Assembly (NCBI GenBank): GCA_903887485.1
Contig: CAISPV010000082.1
Location: 1-47,438 of the forward strand
Direction: 5' to 3'
DNA: 47,438 bases
From: an uncultured Desulfobulbaceae bacterium
Lineage (GTDB): Bacteria > Desulfobacterota > Desulfobulbia > Desulfobulbales > Desulfocapsaceae
The position numbers and the translations under genes are program-made. Below the pieces are notes generated by a model. It was not told the DNA's origin. It saw only the letters and a program-made list of their open reading frames with translations, and did not search any database. Positions 2,094 through 37,070 of this stretch are shown here, piece after piece. The number at the start of each line of letters is the position of its first letter. The stretch's first letter is position 1.

Positions 2094-2345
2094 GTGTACG
2101 CCCGGCACGGGCGTGATCTAATGGAGTGTAAGTCCCCTGTATGTAAACCCGGTACTGTTGTGATAACAGAACCATAAATACTAGCCAAAGGCAAGGGCGA
2201 CCTCGCGAGAGTTCGTCTGAAGGAAGCCGGAGTGCAAAGCTATGAGCCGACGAACAGAAATAGCAGATAAAGCCAAGTTTCCGGGTAAGTCAGCACAACA
2301 TGACAAAGCCCAGGGTTTGGGAGATATTGAAAATGCCGCATATGG
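2094..2345 (+). mobile_element. 5' end of a second group II intron copy, truncated
   Basis: The segment begins GTGTACGCCCGGCACGGGCG, a good match to the GUGYG-type 5' boundary and first stem of bacterial group II introns. It continues with a TAATGGAGTGTAAGTCCCC block and then repeats the 225-378 segment nearly base for base at 2215-2340. Relative to the other copy it lacks an insertion of about 24 nt after AGTGCA and has point differences. The homology stops near 2345, with no leader, reverse transcriptase or domain V after it. It is a relic of an independent or duplicated insertion. Confidence 0.68.
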
Positions 2346-2527
2346 AAAATGGGGACGTTGCTGATATTTAATGTTTTGTCCTGCCGGGTGTTGCGGTGGG
2401 CGGCGGGTGGAGCAATATCCGGGCAGGGCTGGAACGCAATCGCTTCCCTGCACAGTCCGGCTTTTCCAGACTGTGCCACTTGTCCAAACCAGTTTGCCTC
2501 TATCCCGGATGTCCGGTTGCACGTATC

Positions 2528-27101: not shown

Positions 27102-27476
27102 ATGCAGGAGGTTTTATTCATAGCAGGCTTCGGGGCGCTCGGCTGTGTGACCCGCTATTATCTCTCGGGTTGGGCCTATGACCTGTTCGGGAGGAGTTTT
27201 CCCTACGGCACCTTTGCCGTCAACATCCTCGGGGCATTTCTTATCGGCCTGGTTATGGAGTTCGGCATGCGGAGCACGCTGCTGCCGGTCAGTCTGCGTA
27301 TTGGACTGACTATCGGGTTTCTCGGCGGCTTCACCACCTTTTCCACCTTCAGCTATGAGACGTTCCGGTTATTGGAGGAAGGGGACTTTTTTGTAGCCGC
27401 AACCAATGTCCTGGGGAGTGTGATTGTCTGTCTGATTTTTACCTGGTTTGGTATTCATACTGCACGCTATCTTTAA
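27102..27476 (+). CDS. crcB: fluoride channel CrcB/Fluc
   Basis: The 124-residue, four-helix product has the CrcB motifs GALGCVTRYYLSGWAYDLFG, FPYGTFAVNILGAFLIGLV and GFLGGFTTFSTFSYET, with the Asn and Phe-box residues of the pore. Fluc dimers (antiparallel) let fluoride leak out of the cell. TGGAGGATATCG precedes the ATG. No fluoride riboswitch was recognised in the 44-bp gap after the MFS gene. Confidence 0.95.
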   Translation: MQEVLFIAGFGALGCVTRYYLSGWAYDLFGRSFPYGTFAVNILGAFLIGLVMEFGMRSTLLPVSLRIGLTIGFLGGFTTFSTFSYETFRLLEEGDFFVAATNVLGSVIVCLIFTWFGIHTARYL

Positions 27477-27491
27477 AGAATGGGGACAATT

Positions 27492-27833
27492 ATGACACGA
27501 TTCAGCGGCGAAAAGGTATTGATGCGGATATTCCTGGGTGAGAGTGACAAGATCGGGCATCGTCCACTCTATGAAGTCCTGGTTGAATTTTTCAAGAAAG
27601 AAGGGTTTGCCGGGGCCACGGTACTGCGGGGTGTTGCCGGATTTGGTGCGCACAGTGTTTTTCATACCGATAAACTGTTGCGGCTTTCTCTTGATCTTCC
27701 CATTATTATCGAGGTGGTGGAGAGTCAGGAAAAGATCGACGCCGTTATGCCCCGCATCGATGAGATGATGGACGGCGGCATGATCACTCTCGAAAAGGTC
27801 ACCGTGATCCGCTACACTTCCAAAGAAAAATGA
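27492..27833 (+). CDS. DUF190 PII-like small protein
   Basis: The 113-residue product matches the DUF190 family: MRIFLGESDKIGHRPLYEVL, GFAGATVLRGVAGFGAHSVFH and LSLDLPIIIEVVESQEKID. It has a ferredoxin-like PII fold. DUF190 genes commonly neighbour crcB, as here 15 bp downstream, and are presumed to sense or tune it. An ATG four codons earlier is a possible alternative start. Confidence 0.88.
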   Translation: MTRFSGEKVLMRIFLGESDKIGHRPLYEVLVEFFKKEGFAGATVLRGVAGFGAHSVFHTDKLLRLSLDLPIIIEVVESQEKIDAVMPRIDEMMDGGMITLEKVTVIRYTSKEK

Positions 27834-28107: not shown

Positions 28108-29331
28108 ATGACAGAAATTGACCTTTTACCTCTGCGGGCTGAACTGAAAAAGCAGTTTCAGGACAAGCTTCCCAATGCCAGAATCGACTATTGCCTCACC
28201 TGCGGCCTTTGCGCCAGCGGCTGTGCGGCCAGTGGTATCGAAGGCATGGATCCCCGCAAACTCATCCGCTATCTCGTGCTTGGTCAGGACGACCTGCTCA
28301 GAAATACCAACTGGATCTACTCCTGTTCTATCTGTCAGCGCTGCGAATACGCCTGCCCCATGGGGATCAATGTCGGCCGCTTTGTCTATGAGCTGAAAGG
28401 CATGCGCCCCAAGGAGCAACGGCCGGTCAACCTGCAGAGGTCCTGTGAACTGCAGAAGGATCCAGGGAACTCAACCGGTATCCCTAACGAGGATTTTGTC
28501 TGGGTGGTCGGCGATATTCTTGAAGAGATCCATGAAAATGAGCCGGAATGGGCTGATATGCAGGCCCCTATGGATAAGGTGGGCGCTCAGTTCTACCTGA
28601 ACCAGAATGCCAAGGAGCCGACGGTTGAGCCGGAGGAGATGGCCTTCATCTGGAAGATCTTCCATGCGGTCGGCATTGACTGGACCTATTCGTCCAAGTG
28701 GTGGGATGGGGCCAATTACTGCCTCTTCTCCGGTGATCCGGAAGATTGGGAATACACCGTCCGCAAGCAGGCGGAGACGGTGGATGCACTCGGGTGCCCG
28801 ACCTATATCAATACGGAGTGAGGCCACATGCTCTATGCAACCCTGGAAGGGTTGAAACGCTTCAACATCCCCCACAACTTCAATGTTGTCAGTATTATCA
28901 CCTATTATGCCCAGTGGATCCGGGAAGGCCGGCTCAAGGTGGATTCCTCGTGGAACACCGAAGGGTTGAAGTTCACGGTCCAGGATCCCTGCAAACTGGT
29001 GCGCCAGGGCCTTGGCGACCCGGTGGCCGATGACCTGCGTTTTGTTATCAAGCAGGTCTGCGGCGAAGAGAACTTCGTCGATGTCTGGCCCAATAAATCG
29101 AATAACTATTGCTGCGGCGGTGGCGGCGGCGCCCTGCAGGCTGGGTTTACCGATAATCGACGGCAACATGGCAAGATGAAGTTCGAGCAGTTGCATGCCA
29201 CCGGCGCCGATGTGGTGATCACTCCCTGTCATAACTGTCATGGTCAGATCAAGGATCTGGCCGAGTTTTATGGCGGCAAATGGCAGACCACCCACCTGTG
29301 GAACTGGATCGTCAAGGCCCTGGTCAGATAA
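28108..29331 (+). CDS. HdrC-HdrB fusion selenoprotein (HdrD-like) of the Flx-Hdr complex
   Basis: The frame from ATG 28108 has an HdrC-type part with two [4Fe-4S] sets: CLTCGLCASGC (Cys29-39) and CSICQRCEYAC (Cys73-83). It then runs to TGA 28819-28821 and continues in the same frame to 29331. Read through, it is 407 residues with Sec238 in the motif NTE-U-GHMLYATLEG, where HdrD/DsrK/TmcB-type CCG proteins usually have Cys in ECGH. The part after the UGA holds the second CCG motif: DPCKLVRQ, NNYCCGGGGGA and VITPCHNCHGQI. Each half alone would lack parts of the catalytic CCG fold. The expected role is disulfide or thiol redox chemistry at a non-cubane cluster, fed by HdrA. The alternative, two separate subunits with restart at ATG 28828, would need a weak ribosome site. 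Confidence 0.83.
28838..28854 (+). promoter_or_regulatory. candidate bacterial SECIS element of the HdrCB gene
   Basis: CAACCC (28838-28843) pairs with GGGTTG (28849-28854) around the loop TGGAA. It starts 17 bases after UGA 28819-28821, within the usual window for a SelB-binding stem-loop. The loop holds G residues but lacks an obvious GU pair, so it is a moderate candidate. Confidence 0.55.
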
Positions 29332-29358: not shown

Positions 29359-32300
29359 ATGGCAGCAGGATCGGTATTAGTGATTGGCGGCGGTATCGCC
29401 GGCGTACAGGCGGCGCTTGATCTGGCAAACAGCGGGTTCCTCGTCCATCTGGTGGAGGGGACAACATCCATCGGCGGCAAGATGTCGCAACTGGACAAAA
29501 CCTTTCCCACCAATGACTGTTCCGCCTGTATCCTCTCGCCCAAGTTGGTCGAATGCGGCCGCCATTTCAATATCAATCTCCTGACCCTGTCAGACCTGAT
29601 TGCGCTTGAGGGCGAGCCGGGCCGCTTCAAGGCCGTTGTTCGCCAGCGTCCCCGCTATATTGATCCGGAAAAATGTATCGCCTGCGGACTGTGTGCTGAA
29701 AAATGTCCGAAAAAGGTGAGCAATGCGTTTAACGAGGGCATCGGCGAGCGCAAGGCGGCCTATCTCAGTTATCCCCAGGCAGTTCCCCTGAAGTATGCCC
29801 TCGATCCCGATCATTGTATCTGGATCAACAAGCCCGGTCGTTGCGGCCTCTGTGCCAAGGTCTGTCCGGCCGGCGCCATCAATTTTGACGACACGGCCAA
29901 AGAACATGTGCTGGAAGTGGGTTCAGTAGTGCTGGCCCTGGGCTTTTCTCCTTATGATCCCTCCTCCCTTGATTTTACCGGTTATGGCCGCCTGCCCAAT
30001 GTCGTGACCGCCATGGAGTTTGAGCGGCTGCTCAGTCCTTCCGGCCCCTGCATGGGCCACATGGAACGACCATCAGACGGTCGGGAACCCAAACGGATTG
30101 CCTGGCTGCAATGTGTTGGCTCCCGTGACATCAACCGAGTCGGCCATCCCTATTGTTCCTCCATCTGCTGCATGTTTGCCCTCAAACAGGCGGTGATTGC
30201 CAAGGAACATGCCCATGGTGAGTTTGAGCCTTCCATCTTTTATATGGATATGCGGACTCACGGCAAAGGCTTTGAGAATTATTATAACCGTGCCAAGGAT
30301 AATGGTGTCCATTTTCATCGGGCGCGGGTGCATTCGGTGATCCCGGCGGCGGATCCGGGTAATCTGCAACTTCGTTATGTAGATGAGCAGGGCCAGGTCA
30401 ACTTTGGTGAGTTTGACATGGTGGTCCTGTCTACTGGTTTACAGGTGGGGAAACAAACCCTGAACATGGCAGCCATGCTGGGCCTGGAGCTTGATGCTGA
30501 TAATTTTATCAAAACGGACAGCTTCAATCCGGTGGCCACCAGCCGACCGGGGATCTATGTCTGCGGCGCCGCCTCAGAACCCAAGGACATCCCCCAGTCG
30601 GTGATGGAGGCCAGTGCGGCCGCGGCGGAAGCAGGCCGAATCATGGCCCCGGCCCGCTGGACCGAGACCAGTAAAAAGGTGTACCCGGCCGAGATGAATA
30701 TTCACTCTCAGGCCCCCCGGATCGGGGTCTTTGTCTGCCACTGCGGCATCAATATCTCCAGTGTCGTTGATGTGGAAGCGGTGGCCGCCCATGCAAAAAA
30801 TCTGGATGGCGTCGTTTTTTCCCAGTGCAATCTCTTCACCTGCTCCCAGGATACGATCAACCAGATGGTGTCGATCATCAAGGAGCAGGGGCTGAATCGG
30901 GTGGTTGTGGCTTCCTGCTCGCCCCGAACCCATGAGCCGCTCTTTCAGGAGACCCTGCGCGACGCGGGCCTAAACAAGTTCCTCTTTGAGATGGCCAATA
31001 TCCGGGATCAGGATTCCTGGGTCCATCAACTCGAGCCGGAGAAGGCGACGGCCAAGGCCAAGGATCTGGTCGCCATGGCTGTGGCCCGGGTGCGGGGTGA
31101 AGGCGCCCTGCCTTATAATACCGTGCCGGTGACCAAATCGGCGCTGGTGATCGGCGGCGGGGTCTCCGGGATGACGGCGGCGCTTTCCATGGCCGAGCAG
31201 AATTATCCGGTGACCTTGATTGAGCAAAGCGATCTTTTAGGCGGCAATGGCCGCAAGGTCTATCGCAACTGGAAAGGAGATAAGTTTCTTCCCTTTATCG
31301 ATGAGCTGACCGCACGGGTTACTACCCATCCGCAGATCAGTGTCAAATTGAACACGGAGATAAGCGATGTCACCGGTTCCGTCGGCAAATTTATCACCAC
31401 CTTCAGTGATGGCCATTCCTTTGAACATGGGGTGGCGGTCATGGCTGTGGGTGGGAAGGCCTATCAGCCGGAAGGGCAATGGCAGTTCCTGCATGGGGTC
31501 AACCCCAATGTCCAGACCCTGCTGGAGCTGGATCAACGCTTCATTGACGAAGATGCAACGCTGAAAAGTATCAAACAGGCGGTCTTTATCCACTGTGTCG
31601 GCTCACGGATTCCCGAGCGGCCCTATTGCAGCCGGGTCTGCTGTACCCATGCCATTGATTCGGCGGTCAGGCTCAAGGAGCTGAATCCGGACATGGATGT
31701 CTTCATGCTCTACCGCGATGTCCGCACCTACGGGCAACGAGAGCGCCTCTATCAGGAGGCCCGGGCCAAGGGGATTCTCTTCATCCGTTACGACCTTGAG
31801 CATCTGCCGCAGGTGAGTGAAAAGGATGGCCAGCTGGTTATTCATGTCCATGATCCGATCATTGATGCCAATGTTATTATCCATCCCGATATGCTGGTTC
31901 TGGCCACGGCGGTGCAGCCCCGGCAGCAGACCGGTGTTCTTTCCAAGTTCTTCAAGTGTGCCGTGGACTCCCAGGGATTTCTGCTGGAGGCCCATATGAA
32001 ACTACGGCCCGTGGATTTTGCCACGGAAGGCGTGTTTCTGGCCGGGCTCTGCCATTATCCCAAACCCATGGAAGAGGCCATCGCCCAGGCCAAGGCCGCG
32101 GCGGCACGGGCTTCCATTATCCTGGCCTATGACGCAGTCCCTGCCGAAAGCGTCACTGCGGTGGTGACTGCGGCAAAATGTACCGGCTGCGGACTCTGTG
32201 TCGCGGTCTGTGCCTATAATGCGGTGAGCCTGAATGAGAATGGAGTGTCCACGGTGAATACCAGCATGTGCAAAGGCTGCGGCGCCTGTGTCGCCGGTTG

Positions 32301-32376
32301 CCGTTCCGATGCGATCAGCCTGAAGAATATCGGTAACGAGCAGATCATGGCTGCGGTTGATGCGGCGTTTTGTTGA
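29359..32376 (+). CDS. hdrA: HdrA-type flavoprotein, electron-bifurcating subunit (double-FAD long form)
   Basis: The 1005-residue protein has two Rossmann/FAD halves (GGGIAG near residues 10-15 and GGGVSG near 597-602). It carries the HdrA-specific QLDKTFPTNDCSACILSPKL (Cys53, Cys56), two ferredoxin motifs in the first half (CIACGLCAEKCP at 106-117, CGLCAKVCP at 162-170), the VFVCHCGINIS block at about 460 and a C-terminal two-cluster ferredoxin (CTGCGLCVAVC, CKGCGACVAGC). HdrA bifurcates electrons from NAD(P)H or H2 to ferredoxin and to the HdrBC disulfide site. It is longer than methanogen HdrA because of the duplicated half. No Sec codon is present. It starts 27 bp after the selenoprotein gene. 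Confidence 0.93.
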   Translation: MAAGSVLVIGGGIAGVQAALDLANSGFLVHLVEGTTSIGGKMSQLDKTFPTNDCSACILSPKLVECGRHFNINLLTLSDLIALEGEPGRFKAVVRQRPRYIDPEKCIACGLCAEKCPKKVSNAFNEGIGERKAAYLSYPQAVPLKYALDPDHCIWINKPGRCGLCAKVCPAGAINFDDTAKEHVLEVGSVVLALGFSPYDPSSLDFTGYGRLPNVVTAMEFERLLSPSGPCMGHMERPSDGREPKRIAWLQCVGSRDINRVGHPYCSSICCMFALKQAVIAKEHAHGEFEPSIFYMDMRTHGKGFENYYNRAKDNGVHFHRARVHSVIPAADPGNLQLRYVDEQGQVNFGEFDMVVLSTGLQVGKQTLNMAAMLGLELDADNFIKTDSFNPVATSRPGIYVCGAASEPKDIPQSVMEASAAAAEAGRIMAPARWTETSKKVYPAEMNIHSQAPRIGVFVCHCGINISSVVDVEAVAAHAKNLDGVVFSQCNLFTCSQDTINQMVSIIKEQGLNRVVVASCSPRTHEPLFQETLRDAGLNKFLFEMANIRDQDSWVHQLEPEKATAKAKDLVAMAVARVRGEGALPYNTVPVTKSALVIGGGVSGMTAALSMAEQNYPVTLIEQSDLLGGNGRKVYRNWKGDKFLPFIDELTARVTTHPQISVKLNTEISDVTGSVGKFITTFSDGHSFEHGVAVMAVGGKAYQPEGQWQFLHGVNPNVQTLLELDQRFIDEDATLKSIKQAVFIHCVGSRIPERPYCSRVCCTHAIDSAVRLKELNPDMDVFMLYRDVRTYGQRERLYQEARAKGILFIRYDLEHLPQVSEKDGQLVIHVHDPIIDANVIIHPDMLVLATAVQPRQQTGVLSKFFKCAVDSQGFLLEAHMKLRPVDFATEGVFLAGLCHYPKPMEEAIAQAKAAAARASIILAYDAVPAESVTAVVTAAKCTGCGLCVAVCAYNAVSLNENGVSTVNTSMCKGCGACVAGCRSDAISLKNIGNEQIMAAVDAAFC

Positions 32377-32406: not shown

Positions 32407-33165
32407 ATGGCTTATATCCGTCCAAAGAGTGCACATAACCTTTCCCCAGAAGAAAAGCGAAAGCTTTTGCAAGAGTATTTTGATTATTATCAAGAGGTGT
32501 CAGCCCATGATCCAAAATTGCTCAATTCTAAACTACCCCGCAGCGCATTAGATGATTTGTTGAATGAAATTGGAGAGTTGATTTCAAACAAAGCCGAGTT
32601 ACTTGCTTCTACTGACAATGAAGTTAGCCACTTTATAGCGGATAACCCTTTGCCAAAGCACTTAGAACAATATCTTCCAGACAATTTTAGAGTTTATTGC
32701 TTAGCACTAAATGCTATAAAGCAATGGTTGTCAGCTGAACAAGCTGCTACTGATCGGTATATTTTTGGAGGTACTGTCCGCGCTCAATGTAAGAGTTTAG
32801 CTAAATCTTGTTTAGTGTCGGGTAAACCTTCGAAGGAATGCACAATAGAGCTTCATCATCCTGTACGAGATGGTAGACCACCTATCCCAATAGCCAAGGA
32901 AGTTCATGCAGAAATCGAAGGTCAAGTTTCATCAGTTGACATACAAGATAAAATAATGGAGACAATCTATCCAATTAAACGGGAAGGTAACCGCTCATGG
33001 GTAATGCTTAAACTGGGTTGCGAGTTATTATTGGATATTGCAAATACAACAAAAAGCAAAAATGTTCAGGCATCTTCAAAAACATTTGCACGAAAAGCCA
33101 GCACTGCATCGGAATTGAATTATGGTGAGTTATTGAATTGGATAGAAACGAATGGACTCACTTAA
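32407..33165 (+). CDS. foreign protein with a degenerate HNH-like HH motif, unknown
   Basis: The 252-residue product is helical in its first 120 residues, then has a Cys/His stretch SKECTIELHHPVRDGRPPIP followed by a further His, reminiscent of a degenerate HNH nuclease core, and a helical tail. I do not recognise a named family. The gene is AT-rich with codons unlike the hdr/flx genes on both sides. It has only a poor ribosome site 30 bp after hdrA. Together with the next small gene it forms an insert in the Flx-Hdr operon; a restriction or defence-type role is possible but only a guess. Confidence 0.6.
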   Translation: MAYIRPKSAHNLSPEEKRKLLQEYFDYYQEVSAHDPKLLNSKLPRSALDDLLNEIGELISNKAELLASTDNEVSHFIADNPLPKHLEQYLPDNFRVYCLALNAIKQWLSAEQAATDRYIFGGTVRAQCKSLAKSCLVSGKPSKECTIELHHPVRDGRPPIPIAKEVHAEIEGQVSSVDIQDKIMETIYPIKREGNRSWVMLKLGCELLLDIANTTKSKNVQASSKTFARKASTASELNYGELLNWIETNGLT

Positions 33166-33232
33166 CATCATGAATGTACGGTGGTTGCATAAAGATTAAC
33201 TTATCGTATTAGAAAGACAAATTAAGCGGAGC

Positions 33233-33571
33233 ATGACCTATATGGCAAAAAGAAATTATTTCACACAGGATGAAATTGTGCTCTGTACTTATGCTGCATT
33301 GTATGATGTGAACGACTTTGGTGGTCAGTCAATGATTTATAGCTTAACTCATCGAAGTAGAGCATCCATCACAATGAAGATTGCGAATATAGCAGCTATG
33401 CTTGATGAAGTAAGTGTCCGTAGATATAACAATGTGACTCCACTTACAGGGCTTCCTCAAGGCCAGGTTGGTCGAAAGACTAATTGGGATATTGTCGGAT
33501 CGATTTATAAATTATCGAAGCATGAATTTCTTAAAAAGTGTCAAGATATTTTAGTAAAGAACCAAACCTAA
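33233..33571 (+). CDS. small foreign protein, HNH-nuclease N-terminus-like
   Basis: The 112-residue product reads FTQDEIVLCTYAALYDVNDF, then SLTHRSRASITMKIANIAAM and LDEVS. This resembles the N-terminal domain that precedes HNH or restriction endonuclease domains in some proteins, but no nuclease domain follows before the stop. It is AT-rich like its neighbour at 32407. Either a truncated gene or a stand-alone partner. Confidence 0.5.
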   Translation: MTYMAKRNYFTQDEIVLCTYAALYDVNDFGGQSMIYSLTHRSRASITMKIANIAAMLDEVSVRRYNNVTPLTGLPQGQVGRKTNWDIVGSIYKLSKHEFLKKCQDILVKNQT

Positions 33572-33676: not shown

Positions 33677-34138
33677 ATGAATGATCAAAGCACGAACTGG
33701 GAACCGAAGATTATTGCCTTCCTGTGTAACTGGTGCAGTTATGCGGGCGCTGATCTGGCCGGTGTCAGCCGCTTTCAGTATCCATCCAATATCAGGATTG
33801 TCAGGGTTCCCTGTTCGGGACGGGTCAGCGAGAACATGATCATGTCGGCGCTGAAATCCGGGGCTGACGGGATTTTGGTGTCCGGCTGCCATCCGGGTGA
33901 CTGCCACTATATCAGCGGTAATTATTTCGCCCGGCGGCGCTTTGCCCTGTTGAGCAATCTCCTCGATTTTATCGGGATTGAACCGGGCCGGGTCAGTTTT
34001 TCCTGGGTGTCGGCCTCCGAGGGCGAGCAGTTTGCCGAAGTTGTCCAAAGCGTGACTGAGAAAGTAAAAGCACTGGGGCCTGCGAGCAGGCTGGTAAAAA
34101 AAATTGATGCCTTAGAAACGGCATTACAGGTCGCGTAA
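33677..34138 (+). CDS. flxD: MvhD/FlxD-type iron-sulfur subunit
   Basis: The 153-residue product has the MvhD cysteine pattern: FLCNWCSYAGADLAG (Cys17, Cys20), RVPCSGRV (Cys46) and VSGCHPGDCHY (Cys71, Cys76). It binds a [2Fe-2S] cluster and passes electrons between the Flx (or hydrogenase) module and HdrA. No hydrogenase genes are present; the neighbours are Flx subunits, so FlxD is the better name. A ribosome site GAGAGAAG precedes the ATG. It is separated from hdrA by the low-GC pair at 32407-33571. Confidence 0.9.
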   Translation: MNDQSTNWEPKIIAFLCNWCSYAGADLAGVSRFQYPSNIRIVRVPCSGRVSENMIMSALKSGADGILVSGCHPGDCHYISGNYFARRRFALLSNLLDFIGIEPGRVSFSWVSASEGEQFAEVVQSVTEKVKALGPASRLVKKIDALETALQVA

Positions 34139-34146
34139 AAAAGATC

Positions 34147-35193
34147 ATGCCAACAATAAACGAAACAGTAAGTGAAGAGATCCGGGCCCAGGCCAGGAAA
34201 CTTTTGGAAGAAGGCACGGTGGCTGCGGTTATCGGCTATGCTGCCGGCAGCCTGCCGATGACGGTCAAACCGTTGGTGGTTCGGAGTCCTGAGGATTGCC
34301 GCAAGCTGATCTGGAACACCTTCTGCGTGCTCAACCTGGCCAACTATCTGCCGGCGACGCTGAAATCGGTTGAACCGCCGCGCGGACCGCGTGATCCCAA
34401 ACCGGAGGGTCCGCTGCCCAAGGTGGCGATTTGTGCTACCGGCTGCTGGTCACGTAACATTGTGGTGCAGATCCAGGAACATCAGGTGGCCCGTGACCGG
34501 GTGGTGGTCATGGGGGTCGGCAGCCGCGGCATGGTGAGCAAACGAAAGGTGCAGGCCCTTTTTGACGGCCGGGAGATCCTGGCGGTGGAAGAGGGTGATC
34601 ATGAGCTGGTTATTCAGGGTGCTGATTTTTCCGAGACCATCAACCGCTGGAGTGTGGTGCGCGATAACTGCCAGACCTGCACCCATCCTGACCCGGTTCT
34701 GGTGGATGTGCGGATTGGCGAGCCTGTCTCGGAGCGGAAGAACCCCAACCCGTTCATGCAGGTTGACGCCCTGGAACAGAAATCAGGGGATGAGCGCTGG
34801 GCCTGGTTTACTGAGGAGTTTTCCACCTGCATCCGCTGCTATGCCTGCCGCAACGCCTGTCCGCTCTGCTACTGTCCTACCTGTTTTGTCGATGATGCCA
34901 AGCCCCAGTGGGTCGGCAAGAGTCTGGATGCGGTGGATACCGGTCTCTTTCATATCCTGCGGGCCTATCATTGCGCCGGTCGCTGCACCGACTGCGGCAC
35001 CTGTGAGACGGTCTGCCCCAAGGGGATCAATATGCGTATGCTGACCAAGAAGCTGAACAAGGATGTCCTTGATCTGTACGGGATTGAGGCGGGCATGCAG
35101 CCTGATGCCCCTTTGCCGCTGACCACCTATACCATGGATGACCCCCAGAAATTTATGGTGGCTGAGCCCTCGGCTGTCAAGGAGGGTAAATAA
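34147..35193 (+). CDS. FlxB-like iron-sulfur subunit
   Basis: The 348-residue product has an N-terminal domain of the type seen in F420/NAD-linked beta subunits. It carries cysteines CATGCWSRN and NCQTCTHPD, then CIRCYACRNACPLCYC and CAGRCTDCGTCETVCPKGI, enough for at least two [4Fe-4S] clusters. No membrane helices. Its place between flxD and the HydB-like gene, with 8-bp and 2-bp gaps, fits the FlxB role of relaying electrons from the flavin subunit. The subunit letter is inferred from order and content, not from a full alignment. Confidence 0.75.
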   Translation: MPTINETVSEEIRAQARKLLEEGTVAAVIGYAAGSLPMTVKPLVVRSPEDCRKLIWNTFCVLNLANYLPATLKSVEPPRGPRDPKPEGPLPKVAICATGCWSRNIVVQIQEHQVARDRVVVMGVGSRGMVSKRKVQALFDGREILAVEEGDHELVIQGADFSETINRWSVVRDNCQTCTHPDPVLVDVRIGEPVSERKNPNPFMQVDALEQKSGDERWAWFTEEFSTCIRCYACRNACPLCYCPTCFVDDAKPQWVGKSLDAVDTGLFHILRAYHCAGRCTDCGTCETVCPKGINMRMLTKKLNKDVLDLYGIEAGMQPDAPLPLTTYTMDDPQKFMVAEPSAVKEGK

Positions 35194-35195
35194 TC

Positions 35196-36233
35196 GTGAA
35201 GGTCTTTAAGATTACACCAGCCGAGCTGGATGCAATGATTCAGGAGTGGAGCAAGGCCCATCCGGTTTATGCTCCAGCCCTTGCCAAACAACCCGCCGCA
35301 TCTCCTGACTGTGCACCTGGCTGGAGCAGGGTGGACGGCAATGCGCCGTTGACACTGCCCGTCGGGCCGCCCCCGGCATCGGTGAAGACATTTTTCTTCC
35401 CGCAGCCGGAAACCCTGCTCACCTATACCCTGGAGAATAACCATCCGGACAAGGGTTTGATGCGGGAACCGGCAAAATCCCAGGGAATACAGGTCGTGGT
35501 TGGCGTCCGTCCCTGTGATGCCAGAAGCGTCCTGCTCAACAATCTGCCTTATCAGGAAGATCCTTTCTTTCAGGCCAACCGGCAGCGGACGGCGCTGATC
35601 GGCTTTACCTGCGAGCAGACCCGGTCAACCTGCTTCTGCACGCAAATGGGTGGCTCGCCGCTCGGTAGTGAAGGTCTTGATCTGGTCTTTTCCCGAACGC
35701 GGGATGGTTTTATTGTCGAGGTGGGCAGCGCCAAAGGTGAGGCCCTGGTGGCTGACCTGGATCTGGCCCCGGCCGATGAGAGCGAGATTTCGGCCCTTGC
35801 CGCGCGCCGCCAAGAAGAGGTCAAGGCCAGTTCAACGGAACTTGACACCTTGAAAGGCAGAGAGCTGGGAAAACTCTATGATGCCCCCCTCTGGCAGCCT
35901 TTGGGCGAGTCGTGCATCAACTGCGGGGCCTGCACCTTTATCTGCCCGACCTGTTATTGCTTTGACATCCAGGATGAGGTGGTGCGCGGCCAGGGACGAC
36001 GCATCCGCTATTGGGACTCCTGCATGTTTCCCCTGTACAGCCTGCACACCTCGGGCCATAATCCCCGGGGGCAGAAGGTGCAGCGGACCCGCAACCGCTT
36101 CCTGCATAAACTGAAATATTTCCCGGATCGCTTCGGACCTTTCTCCTGTGTGGGTTGTGGGCGCTGCGTCCAGGATTGTCCTGTTAACATTGATATCCGT
36201 GAGGTCATGACTGACCTTCTGGCGGTGGAGTAA
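35196..36233 (+). CDS. FlxC/HydB-AsrA-like iron-sulfur subunit
   Basis: The 345-residue product belongs to the HydB/AsrA group (beta subunit of sulfhydrogenase, subunit A of anaerobic sulfite reductase). It has VVVGVRPCDARSVLLNNLPY, then CINCGACTFICPTCYC and CVGCGRCVQDCPVNI, two [4Fe-4S] ferredoxin motifs. It relays electrons between FlxA and FlxB/FlxD. It starts with GTG two bases after the previous stop. Its stop (36231-36233) lies three bases before the next gene's ATG. Confidence 0.82.
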   Translation: MKVFKITPAELDAMIQEWSKAHPVYAPALAKQPAASPDCAPGWSRVDGNAPLTLPVGPPPASVKTFFFPQPETLLTYTLENNHPDKGLMREPAKSQGIQVVVGVRPCDARSVLLNNLPYQEDPFFQANRQRTALIGFTCEQTRSTCFCTQMGGSPLGSEGLDLVFSRTRDGFIVEVGSAKGEALVADLDLAPADESEISALAARRQEEVKASSTELDTLKGRELGKLYDAPLWQPLGESCINCGACTFICPTCYCFDIQDEVVRGQGRRIRYWDSCMFPLYSLHTSGHNPRGQKVQRTRNRFLHKLKYFPDRFGPFSCVGCGRCVQDCPVNIDIREVMTDLLAVE

Positions 36234-36236
36234 GAT

Positions 36237-37070
36237 ATGATATCCTATATGCCCTATCCTGTCCGCATCGACGACATTGTGGTTGAGACGGAAGACGGCA
36301 ACCAGAAGACCTTCAAACTTGTCTTTGAGAATGAGGCCCATAGAAAGGCATGGCGCCATGTGCCGGGTCAGTTTGCCATGCTGTCGCTGGCAGGACAAGG
36401 TGAGATCCCCATCGGTATTGCCTCTTCACCCACCGAGGAAGGGCATCTGCTCTTTACCGTCAACCGGGCCGGCAAGGTGACCACCGCCCTGCACCAGATG
36501 AATATCGGTGATCGCATGGGCGTGCGTGGCCCCTTGGGTAACGGTTTTCCCATCAATACTGACATGTTGGGCAAGAATATTGTCATCATTGCCGGCGGTT
36601 TTGCGGTAACCACCCTGCGGGCCACCCTGCTTTCTCTGCTTGCCCGTCGCCCAGATTACGGCAAGATCACCTTTATCTATGGCGCCCGGACACCGGGTAT
36701 GTTGCTGTATCGGGATGAGCTGAAACAGTGGGCGCAGCGTGAGGATATCGATCTTCATGTCACCATCGACCGCGAGGCGCCGGGCTGGGATGGACTGGTC
36801 GGCTTTGTGCCCACCATTGCCGGTGATGTCGCGCCATCACCGGAAAACAGTGTGGCCCTCATCTGCGGCCCGCCGATCATGATCAAATTTACCATGCCGC
36901 CTCTGGAAAAGATCGGCTGGACGGATGATCAGGTCTATCTTTCGCTGGAAAACAGGATGAAATGCGGGGAAGGGGTCTGCTGCCACTGCAATGTCGGCCC
37001 TACTCTGGTGTGCAAGGACGGCCCGGTTTTTACCCGCAGCCAGGTGAAGCAACTGCCCATTGAATATTGA
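36237..37070 (+). CDS. flxA: FlxA/HydG-AsrB-like NAD(P)H:flavin subunit
   Basis: The 277-residue product is an FNR-type reductase: FAD domain with HVPGQFAMLSLAGQGEIPIG, NAD(P) domain with IIAGGFAVTTLR and ALICGPPIMIKF, and a C-terminal cysteine set MKCGEGVCCHCNVGPTLVCKDG for a [2Fe-2S] cluster. It is the entry point where NAD(P)H is oxidised or NAD(P)+ reduced for the Flx-Hdr complex. It ends the operon. An alternative start at the next Met is possible. Confidence 0.9.
   Translation: MISYMPYPVRIDDIVVETEDGNQKTFKLVFENEAHRKAWRHVPGQFAMLSLAGQGEIPIGIASSPTEEGHLLFTVNRAGKVTTALHQMNIGDRMGVRGPLGNGFPINTDMLGKNIVIIAGGFAVTTLRATLLSLLARRPDYGKITFIYGARTPGMLLYRDELKQWAQREDIDLHVTIDREAPGWDGLVGFVPTIAGDVAPSPENSVALICGPPIMIKFTMPPLEKIGWTDDQVYLSLENRMKCGEGVCCHCNVGPTLVCKDGPVFTRSQVKQLPIEY

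Follow-up and report, generated by a model that had tools for sequence, protein, structure and literature searches.

The in-frame UGA at 28819-28821 of the window (the whole stretch of DNA that was analysed, 47,438 nt) almost certainly encodes selenocysteine, an assignment made on sequence grounds from a column that holds only UGA or Cys codons, a conserved hairpin, and the presence of selA, selB, selD and tRNA-Sec in the source genome. The surrounding gene, at 28108-29331, would on this basis give rise to one 407-residue selenoprotein, with Sec238 inserted with the aid of SelB and the hairpin. We propose with considerable confidence that this protein provides the HdrB/C part of a Flx-Hdr complex fed by NADH, in which Sec238 is a likely free selenolate beside a noncubane cluster. 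The gene, the features within it and the annotated genes of its operon are all on the + strand.

Coordinates of the open reading frames either side of the UGA, 28108-28821 (237 aa) and 28828-29331 (167 aa), confirm the proposal of the initial annotation that both share the phase of the TGA, and read-through yields a 407 aa product that ends at a TAA stop. On this product, Pfam places Fer4_17/Fer4_8 (two [4Fe-4S] motifs) at residues 26-88 and a CCG domain at residues 290-382, in agreement with the earlier description of HdrC-like clusters before the UGA and a CCG domain after it. The layout thus runs from two HdrC-like [4Fe-4S] motifs, through a degenerate CCG-like repeat, to one complete CCG domain. 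The HdrC-like part (28192-28356), which matches HdrC chains of solved structures with a best E-value of 1.5e-20, contains the two cubane motifs, Cys 29/32/35/39 and 73/76/79/83. The only complete CCG motif (28990-29238; CX39CCX37CXXC), a predicted noncubane [4Fe-4S] site, is formed by Cys295/335/336/374/377, each of which is present in 105/105 representative sequences. All of these columns are invariant in the 105-sequence alignment, and residue 238 (Cys or Sec) is the sole invariant Cys/Sec column outside the two cubane motifs and the complete CCG motif. A second complete CCG motif, as expected of an HdrB-type catalytic subunit that carries a pair of noncubane clusters, was not found among the invariant columns of these sequences. 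The selenocysteine had initially been placed at the CCG motif; it lies not in the complete Pfam motif, but in the degenerate CCG-like repeat that precedes it.

With regard to family assignment, the top NCBIfam matches are HmcF (191.9 bits, cut-off 750), TmcB (172.4, cut-off 735) and DsrK (129.8, cut-off 400), all three far under the curated cut-offs for equivalog membership, and matches to GlpC are weak and likewise under cut-off. From its domains and neighbours, the protein is assigned as an HdrC-HdrB fusion (HdrD/GlpC-like) within an hdrA-mvhD-Flx-type operon.

A total of 144 loci were compared, one of which (L038) stops short of the codon. Amongst the 143 homologous genes that reach it, the column at the UGA holds 114 UGA and 29 Cys codons and no others, although this ratio is neither a census nor a frequency, since the homologue set was partly hand-picked and its loci overlap. 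UAA and UAG are absent from the column (0/143), the frame runs continuously through it in 143/143 genes, and the 29 Cys-containing orthologues, which it had been suggested should be sought, each encode one unbroken protein. Neither homologues split into two polypeptides nor homologues with no Cys or Sec aligned at the UGA, both envisaged beforehand as counter-evidence, were encountered. After clustering, the UGA and Cys counts are 103 and 27 at 99.9 %, 78 and 27 at 90 %, and 44 and 18 at 80 %. A scan of genome contigs, in which the nearest named relatives are Desulfocapsaceae/Desulfobulbaceae assemblies, contributed 35 loci, 34 of them long enough to include the codon, which is TGA in 32 and TGC in 2. 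The phylum-wide set comprises 30 homologues supplied by the search and 79 hand-picked from its listed matches, and partly overlaps with the contig-scan loci; L002, L003, L039-L059 and L166, retrieved for other purposes, were left out of the column count. In the phylum-wide search, 157 of the 395 sampled genomes match at an E-value of 1e-40 or better, some without the UGA, such that a standard gene caller would break up an energy-metabolism subunit in numerous sulfur bacteria. On a quick tree built with the codon position masked, at least 10 exchanges between Sec and Cys are needed, 9 of them forced by well-supported branches, compared with 24 for shuffled labels.

A stem-loop had been noted as starting 17 bases past the UGA, and comparative stem conservation bears this out: a SECIS-type hairpin occupies 28838-28854, with arms at 28838-28844 and 28848-28854 and a GGA loop. 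The fraction of stem pairs formed is 0.956 in the 71 distinct Sec genes of the nearer group, versus 0.592 upon synonymous recoding (sd 0.018, maximum 0.634 in 200 draws), and in distant Sec genes (n=32) the values are 0.805 and 0.514 (sd 0.025). The corresponding values for Cys genes are 0.551 and 0.518 (sd 0.031) for nearer examples (n=16), and 0.478 and 0.443 (sd 0.038) for distant ones (n=11). At stem pair 18-30, 37 of the 71 nearer Sec genes have A-T and the remaining 34 have G-C, with no exceptions. At the level of codons, 33 genes combine Thr ACC with GGG for Gly and TTG for Leu, and 31 combine Val GTC with GGA and CTG; the combinations in the last 7 of the 71 are ATC-GGA-TTG (4), GTC-GGG-CTG (2) and GTC-GGA-CAG (1). 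Synonymous positions therefore track an amino-acid substitution that lies 10 to 12 bases further upstream, the behaviour required of an RNA stem. The evidence for the hairpin is comparative, because its fold as a single sequence is unimpressive and too weak to decide the matter (z -1.83, with 8 of 200 shuffles equally good). Upon folding of 51-nt windows some Sec genes prefer a different fold, and in two fixed registers less than 80 % of the stem is paired in 17 of the 103 Sec genes. One Cys homologue, L140:2206-3348, retains 7/7 of the SECIS stem pairs, with a TTC loop as opposed to the G-containing loop of Sec genes; judging by these features, its hairpin is likely a fossil SECIS.

The machinery for selenocysteine insertion was looked for by family searches of the source genome, which is 97.7 % complete. 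These returned selA (620 bits, cut-off 268), selB (389 bits, cut-off 242), selD (378 bits, cut-off 125) and tRNA-Sec (68.3 bits, cut-off 47), and the absence of selB and selC, which was to have counted against selenocysteine, did not materialise. The selD gene (genome contig C3:75574-76515, L056) has one in-frame TGA, and SelD is thus probably itself a selenoprotein. When 80 genomes were scanned for tRNA-Sec, 78 exceeded the Rfam cut-off, which is a leaky test because weaker second matches and 5 of 14 control genomes also pass it. Matches of at least 60 bits occur in 75 genomes, including genomes with the Cys gene and eight in which the phylum-wide search found no homologue. Of the five with no match of at least 60 bits (G057, G077, G205, G232 and G346), all but G077 have the UGA form of the gene, and these four are drafts of 120-350 contigs. 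Across the 80 genomes, the presence of tRNA-Sec does not separate the Sec and Cys forms.

As for the residue itself, the protein reads NTE-U-GH where relatives such as HdrD, DsrK and TmcB had been said to carry ECGH, and GGECGHM is indeed present in 20/20 DsrK proteins of the same order, which formed the comparison set. Alignment of the DsrK profile with that of the selenoprotein family (E 1e-37) sets Cys341 on residue 238, column for column; the DsrK profile matched no DsrK chain among solved structures. The predicted structure of the full-length protein is continuous (mean pLDDT 93.3, pTM 0.91), and amongst solved structures the one that it matches best is Mycobacterium smegmatis EtfD (9ojn; Z 27.1, 2.5 Å, 365 residues). 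Matches to HdrB (8rvu_B, Z 20.6; 5odc_B, Z 19.5) each extend over 237 residues and cover 160-407 of the model, whilst further matches are to a LutA-LutB integrative model (9a6l_A, Z 20.9) and an H. pylori structure (3kwl, Z 19.1).

Alignment of the family profile to EtfD (9ojn_A) pairs residue 238 with Cys581, 240 with His583 and 241 with Cys584; posterior marks are highest for residues 238 to 240. Excerpts of PMC13083937 give the ligands of the EtfD linear [3Fe-4S] cluster as Cys503, 538, 581 and 584, and those of its noncubane [4Fe-4S] cluster as Cys637, 672, 673, 709 and 712, together with His583. The residue aligned with this last ligand, His240 (28825-28827), is His in 104/105 sequences. 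A check against HdrB and DsrK homologues had been proposed at the outset, and whilst the DsrK part places a Cys on the Sec column, the HdrB part is not significant: when the Sec half is compared by profile on its own, the probability is 0.4 % with the first half of HdrB and 1.3 % with its second half (where Sec lies on the second Cys of CXXC). Comparison with the second half of the selenoprotein itself, at 0.4 %, is likewise not significant. The position of Sec is for this reason argued via EtfD and secondary structure, and the EtfD alignment is firmer ground than the comparison with HdrB. In the model, residue 238 follows a strand and immediately precedes a helix, and Cys374, the first Cys of CXXC, is likewise placed before a helix, which suggests that Sec238 may correspond to the leading Cys of CXXC in a first CCG repeat, although the better of the two HdrB comparisons points to the second Cys. 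The initial annotation had taken the residue to be either a ligand or redox-active at the noncubane site; the EtfD alignment supports proximity to that site, and support extends as far as proximity.

The chief rival to a free selenolate accepts that Sec238 is real, but makes it a direct cluster ligand, for example of the labile iron of the noncubane cluster, or a structural residue, and hence no free nucleophile. Such a role is possible, if somewhat improbable in our judgement. It draws on the fact that the EtfD counterpart, Cys581, ligates a cluster, and on the position of residue 238 ahead of a helix, like the CCG cysteine Cys374. Against this, the other three ligands of the EtfD cluster have no Cys counterpart: that of Cys538 is position 192, which is Trp in 105/105 sequences; that of Cys584 is position 241, which is Cys in 0/105; and Cys503 falls on a glycine, within a weak stretch of the profile alignment. 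Nor is there a conserved Cys at 164-167, the site that secondary structure would indicate for a Cys503 counterpart, with 3 Cys at 164 and 1 at 166 amongst the 105 sequences. Since the partner ligands of the second cluster of EtfD are gone, Sec238 is most likely a free selenolate.

Explanations that dispense with selenocysteine fare far worse. That two genes are translated in turn, an HdrC-like protein from 28108-28821 and a CCG protein from 28828-29331, is very unlikely; although the second frame has an ATG directly past the UGA (28828), 29 of the 143 homologues cross the column with an in-frame Cys codon, the hairpin is kept in UGA genes and lost in Cys genes as a group (L140, with its altered loop, being the exception), and the full-length model is continuous and of high confidence. 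Slightly less credible again is a changed code or a suppressor that inserts Cys or Trp at the UGA, for whilst the residue that alternates with the UGA is Cys, this would account neither for a SECIS-type hairpin retained in UGA genes and lost from Cys genes, nor for a genome with full Sec machinery. A decaying pseudogene with a nonsense mutation, or an error of sequencing, which the single in-frame stop might suggest, can be dismissed given the identical UGA in 103 distinct homologues, the lack of UAA or UAG at the column, and the invariance of 13/13 Cys that mark Fe-S sites. These three explanations were accordingly rejected on the Cys read-through homologues, the conserved UGA and hairpin, and the Sec machinery.

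The Flx-Hdr context put forward in the initial annotation proved right, by NCBIfam and Pfam matches of the downstream genes. An HdrA2-like hdrA of 1005 aa follows at 29359-32376 (NCBIfam NF040770, 948.7 bits, E 2.2e-285, under the cut-off of 1100), and then an mvhD/flpD gene (FlxD-like) at 33677-34138 (Pfam FlpD, E 1.1e-55). Beyond this lie three candidate Flx-type subunits: an Fe-S protein at 34147-35193 (Pfam Fer4_8), which follows mvhD in 19 of 34 relatives; an Fe-S protein at 35196-36233 related to AsrA and sulfhydrogenase beta (NCBIfam E 2.8e-41 to 9.5e-39, under cut-offs); and a FlxA-like FAD/NAD(P)-binding subunit at 36237-37070, related to sulfhydrogenase gamma and AsrB (NCBIfam under cut-offs; Pfam NAD_binding_1, FAD_binding_6 and DHODB_Fe-S_bind). 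Domain and family matches thus provide the content of a FlxABCD-HdrABC-type cluster, namely HdrA, HdrB/C, an MvhD-like protein, two Fe-S proteins and a FAD/NAD subunit. In the 34 contig-scan loci that hold the codon, hdrA comes next in 33, then mvhD in 26 and the next Fe-S gene in 19. Most loci without full synteny end too early; L029 has 4 kb without hdrA, and in L008, which carries a Cys gene, hdrA is present and mvhD is absent from its stretch.

Upstream, at 27102-27833, a crcB family gene and then a DUF190 gene adjoin the operon; both are also found upstream in L004, L005, L008, L037, L038, L060 and L061, and neither turned up in the 4 kb that precede L006. The interval between hdrA and mvhD contains two ORFs of 252 and 112 aa (32407-33571), which have no Pfam or NCBIfam family and no tblastn match in any homologue locus compared, on which last ground a part in the Hdr system was rejected for them; the second has a weak PADLOC match to PDC-S36 (E 0.0016). 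The same interval is ~60 bp in L005, L006, L007 and L037, and about 320-700 bp, with other content, in L009, L010, L011 and L031. GC at 32407-33571 is 0.38-0.40, versus 0.51-0.60 around it, and HdrA ends in a different residue from its L037 counterpart; by its composition and distribution the region looks like a recent insertion. Elsewhere in the window, Rfam matches to group II intron D1-D4 occur at 207-401, 477-556 and 2199-2359 (+ strand). A genome of the same genus harbours a second, distant Sec paralogue (L153, G357:C37; PEUGHAYF), followed by relatives of hdrA and mvhD.

Returning to the favoured reading, a selenoprotein with a free selenolate, its first step is well supported: Sec-tRNA and SelB would decode the UGA at 28819 as Sec238, aided by the hairpin at 28838-28854. 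Electrons from NADH may then enter at the FAD/NAD subunit (36237-37070) and pass via the Fe-S subunits and MvhD to HdrA, and from there through the two cubane clusters to the noncubane [4Fe-4S] cluster. By comparison with EtfD and HdrB, this cluster would be held by Cys295/335/336/374/377 and probably His240, and Sec238 would adjoin it, at the position of a ligand of the second EtfD cluster. The selenolate could attack or hold a disulfide or trisulfide, for example that of DsrC, whilst the cluster donates electrons; a lone selenolate beside a His-ligated noncubane cluster is suggested, probably as the disulfide- or trisulfide-reducing site. Selenocysteine has a lower pKa than cysteine and undergoes faster exchange; in sister genes Cys stands in its place. 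In D. vulgaris, going by the title of one study, DsrC reportedly interacts directly with FlxABCD-HdrABC. DsrC is a fair candidate for the substrate, since excerpts of PMC10553843 describe Flx-Hdr together with DsrC, with electrons moved between NADH, ferredoxin and DsrC, and since the present genome encodes a DsrC with both C-terminal Cys. Extending this, we tentatively suggest, as an idea whose merits are still finely balanced, that the UGH/ECGH proteins, namely DsrK and the present family, represent a class of heterodisulfide-reductase-like sites that have exchanged the second HdrB/EtfD cluster for a single free Sec or Cys, beside a noncubane [4Fe-4S] cluster closed by the His two positions further along, that this selenolate-Fe-S pair cleaves a disulfide or trisulfide (e.g. 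of DsrC), and that Sec has given way to Cys approximately ten times.

Amongst known selenoproteins, the window protein fits the 'Fe-S oxidoreductase-like (GlpC)' family, which is tabulated with a UGH motif in PMC13188914 and also appears in a table of PMC9312934 and in PMC1794560. Membership was judged by motif, layout and hairpin, the family's listed record being WP_174406253.1. PMC1794560 lists Desulfotalea psychrophila, Syntrophobacter fumaroxidans and Desulfovibrio vulgaris as carriers of the selenoprotein. Common to both are UGH at the Sec position, a GlpC/HdrD-like protein with two [4Fe-4S] motifs and then CCG, a SECIS-type hairpin after the UGA, Cys homologues, hdrA and frhD/mvhD partners, and occurrence in Deltaproteobacteria. 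The published operon, glpC-hdrA-frhD-frhG-frhA (PMC1794560), differs in that it continues with the hydrogenase genes frhG-frhA, whereas three Flx-type NADH-linked genes follow mvhD here. The selenoprotein family is therefore not new, having been predicted since 2006 (PMC1794560) and described as largely uncharacterised in the available text of a 2026 review (PMC13188914). The Sec-containing HdrD4 of Desulfobacterium autotrophicum, as described in PMC2702500, similarly unites HdrC and HdrB domains in a single soluble protein; this likeness is one of description.

Similarity to DsrK of DsrMKJOP extends over nearly the full length, yet DsrK has Cys (ECGH) at the Sec column, and its family cut-off is not reached by the window protein. 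Compared with EtfD, nearly the whole model matches and the His ligand of the noncubane cluster is kept, but the membrane part is lacking, and the Cys of the linear [3Fe-4S] cluster have no counterparts except at the Sec position. HdrABC (5odc, 8rvu) shares the HdrC clusters and the HdrB fold, whereas here HdrB and HdrC are fused, one complete CCG motif is present rather than two, and Sec lies in the degenerate first repeat. The FlxABCD-HdrABC of Desulfovibrio vulgaris, whose function is recounted in excerpts of PMC10553843 and PMC6470260, has the same clustered subunits as assigned by domain; in contrast to it, HdrB and HdrC are here fused as a selenoprotein. The activity characteristic of that complex is bifurcation, with NADH driving the reduction of ferredoxin and DsrC, and a dsrC gene is present in the source genome. 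A literature search, mainly of titles, abstract openings and excerpts, found no published placement of this family's Sec relative to a noncubane cluster, nor a mapping onto EtfD. What is new here is this member, its Flx context, and the mapping of Sec238/His240 onto EtfD Cys581/His583. The EtfD alignment thereby gives selenium a testable place, two residues from the His ligand of the noncubane cluster, and the same kind of experiment could test what the conserved Cys in the ECGH motif of DsrK does.
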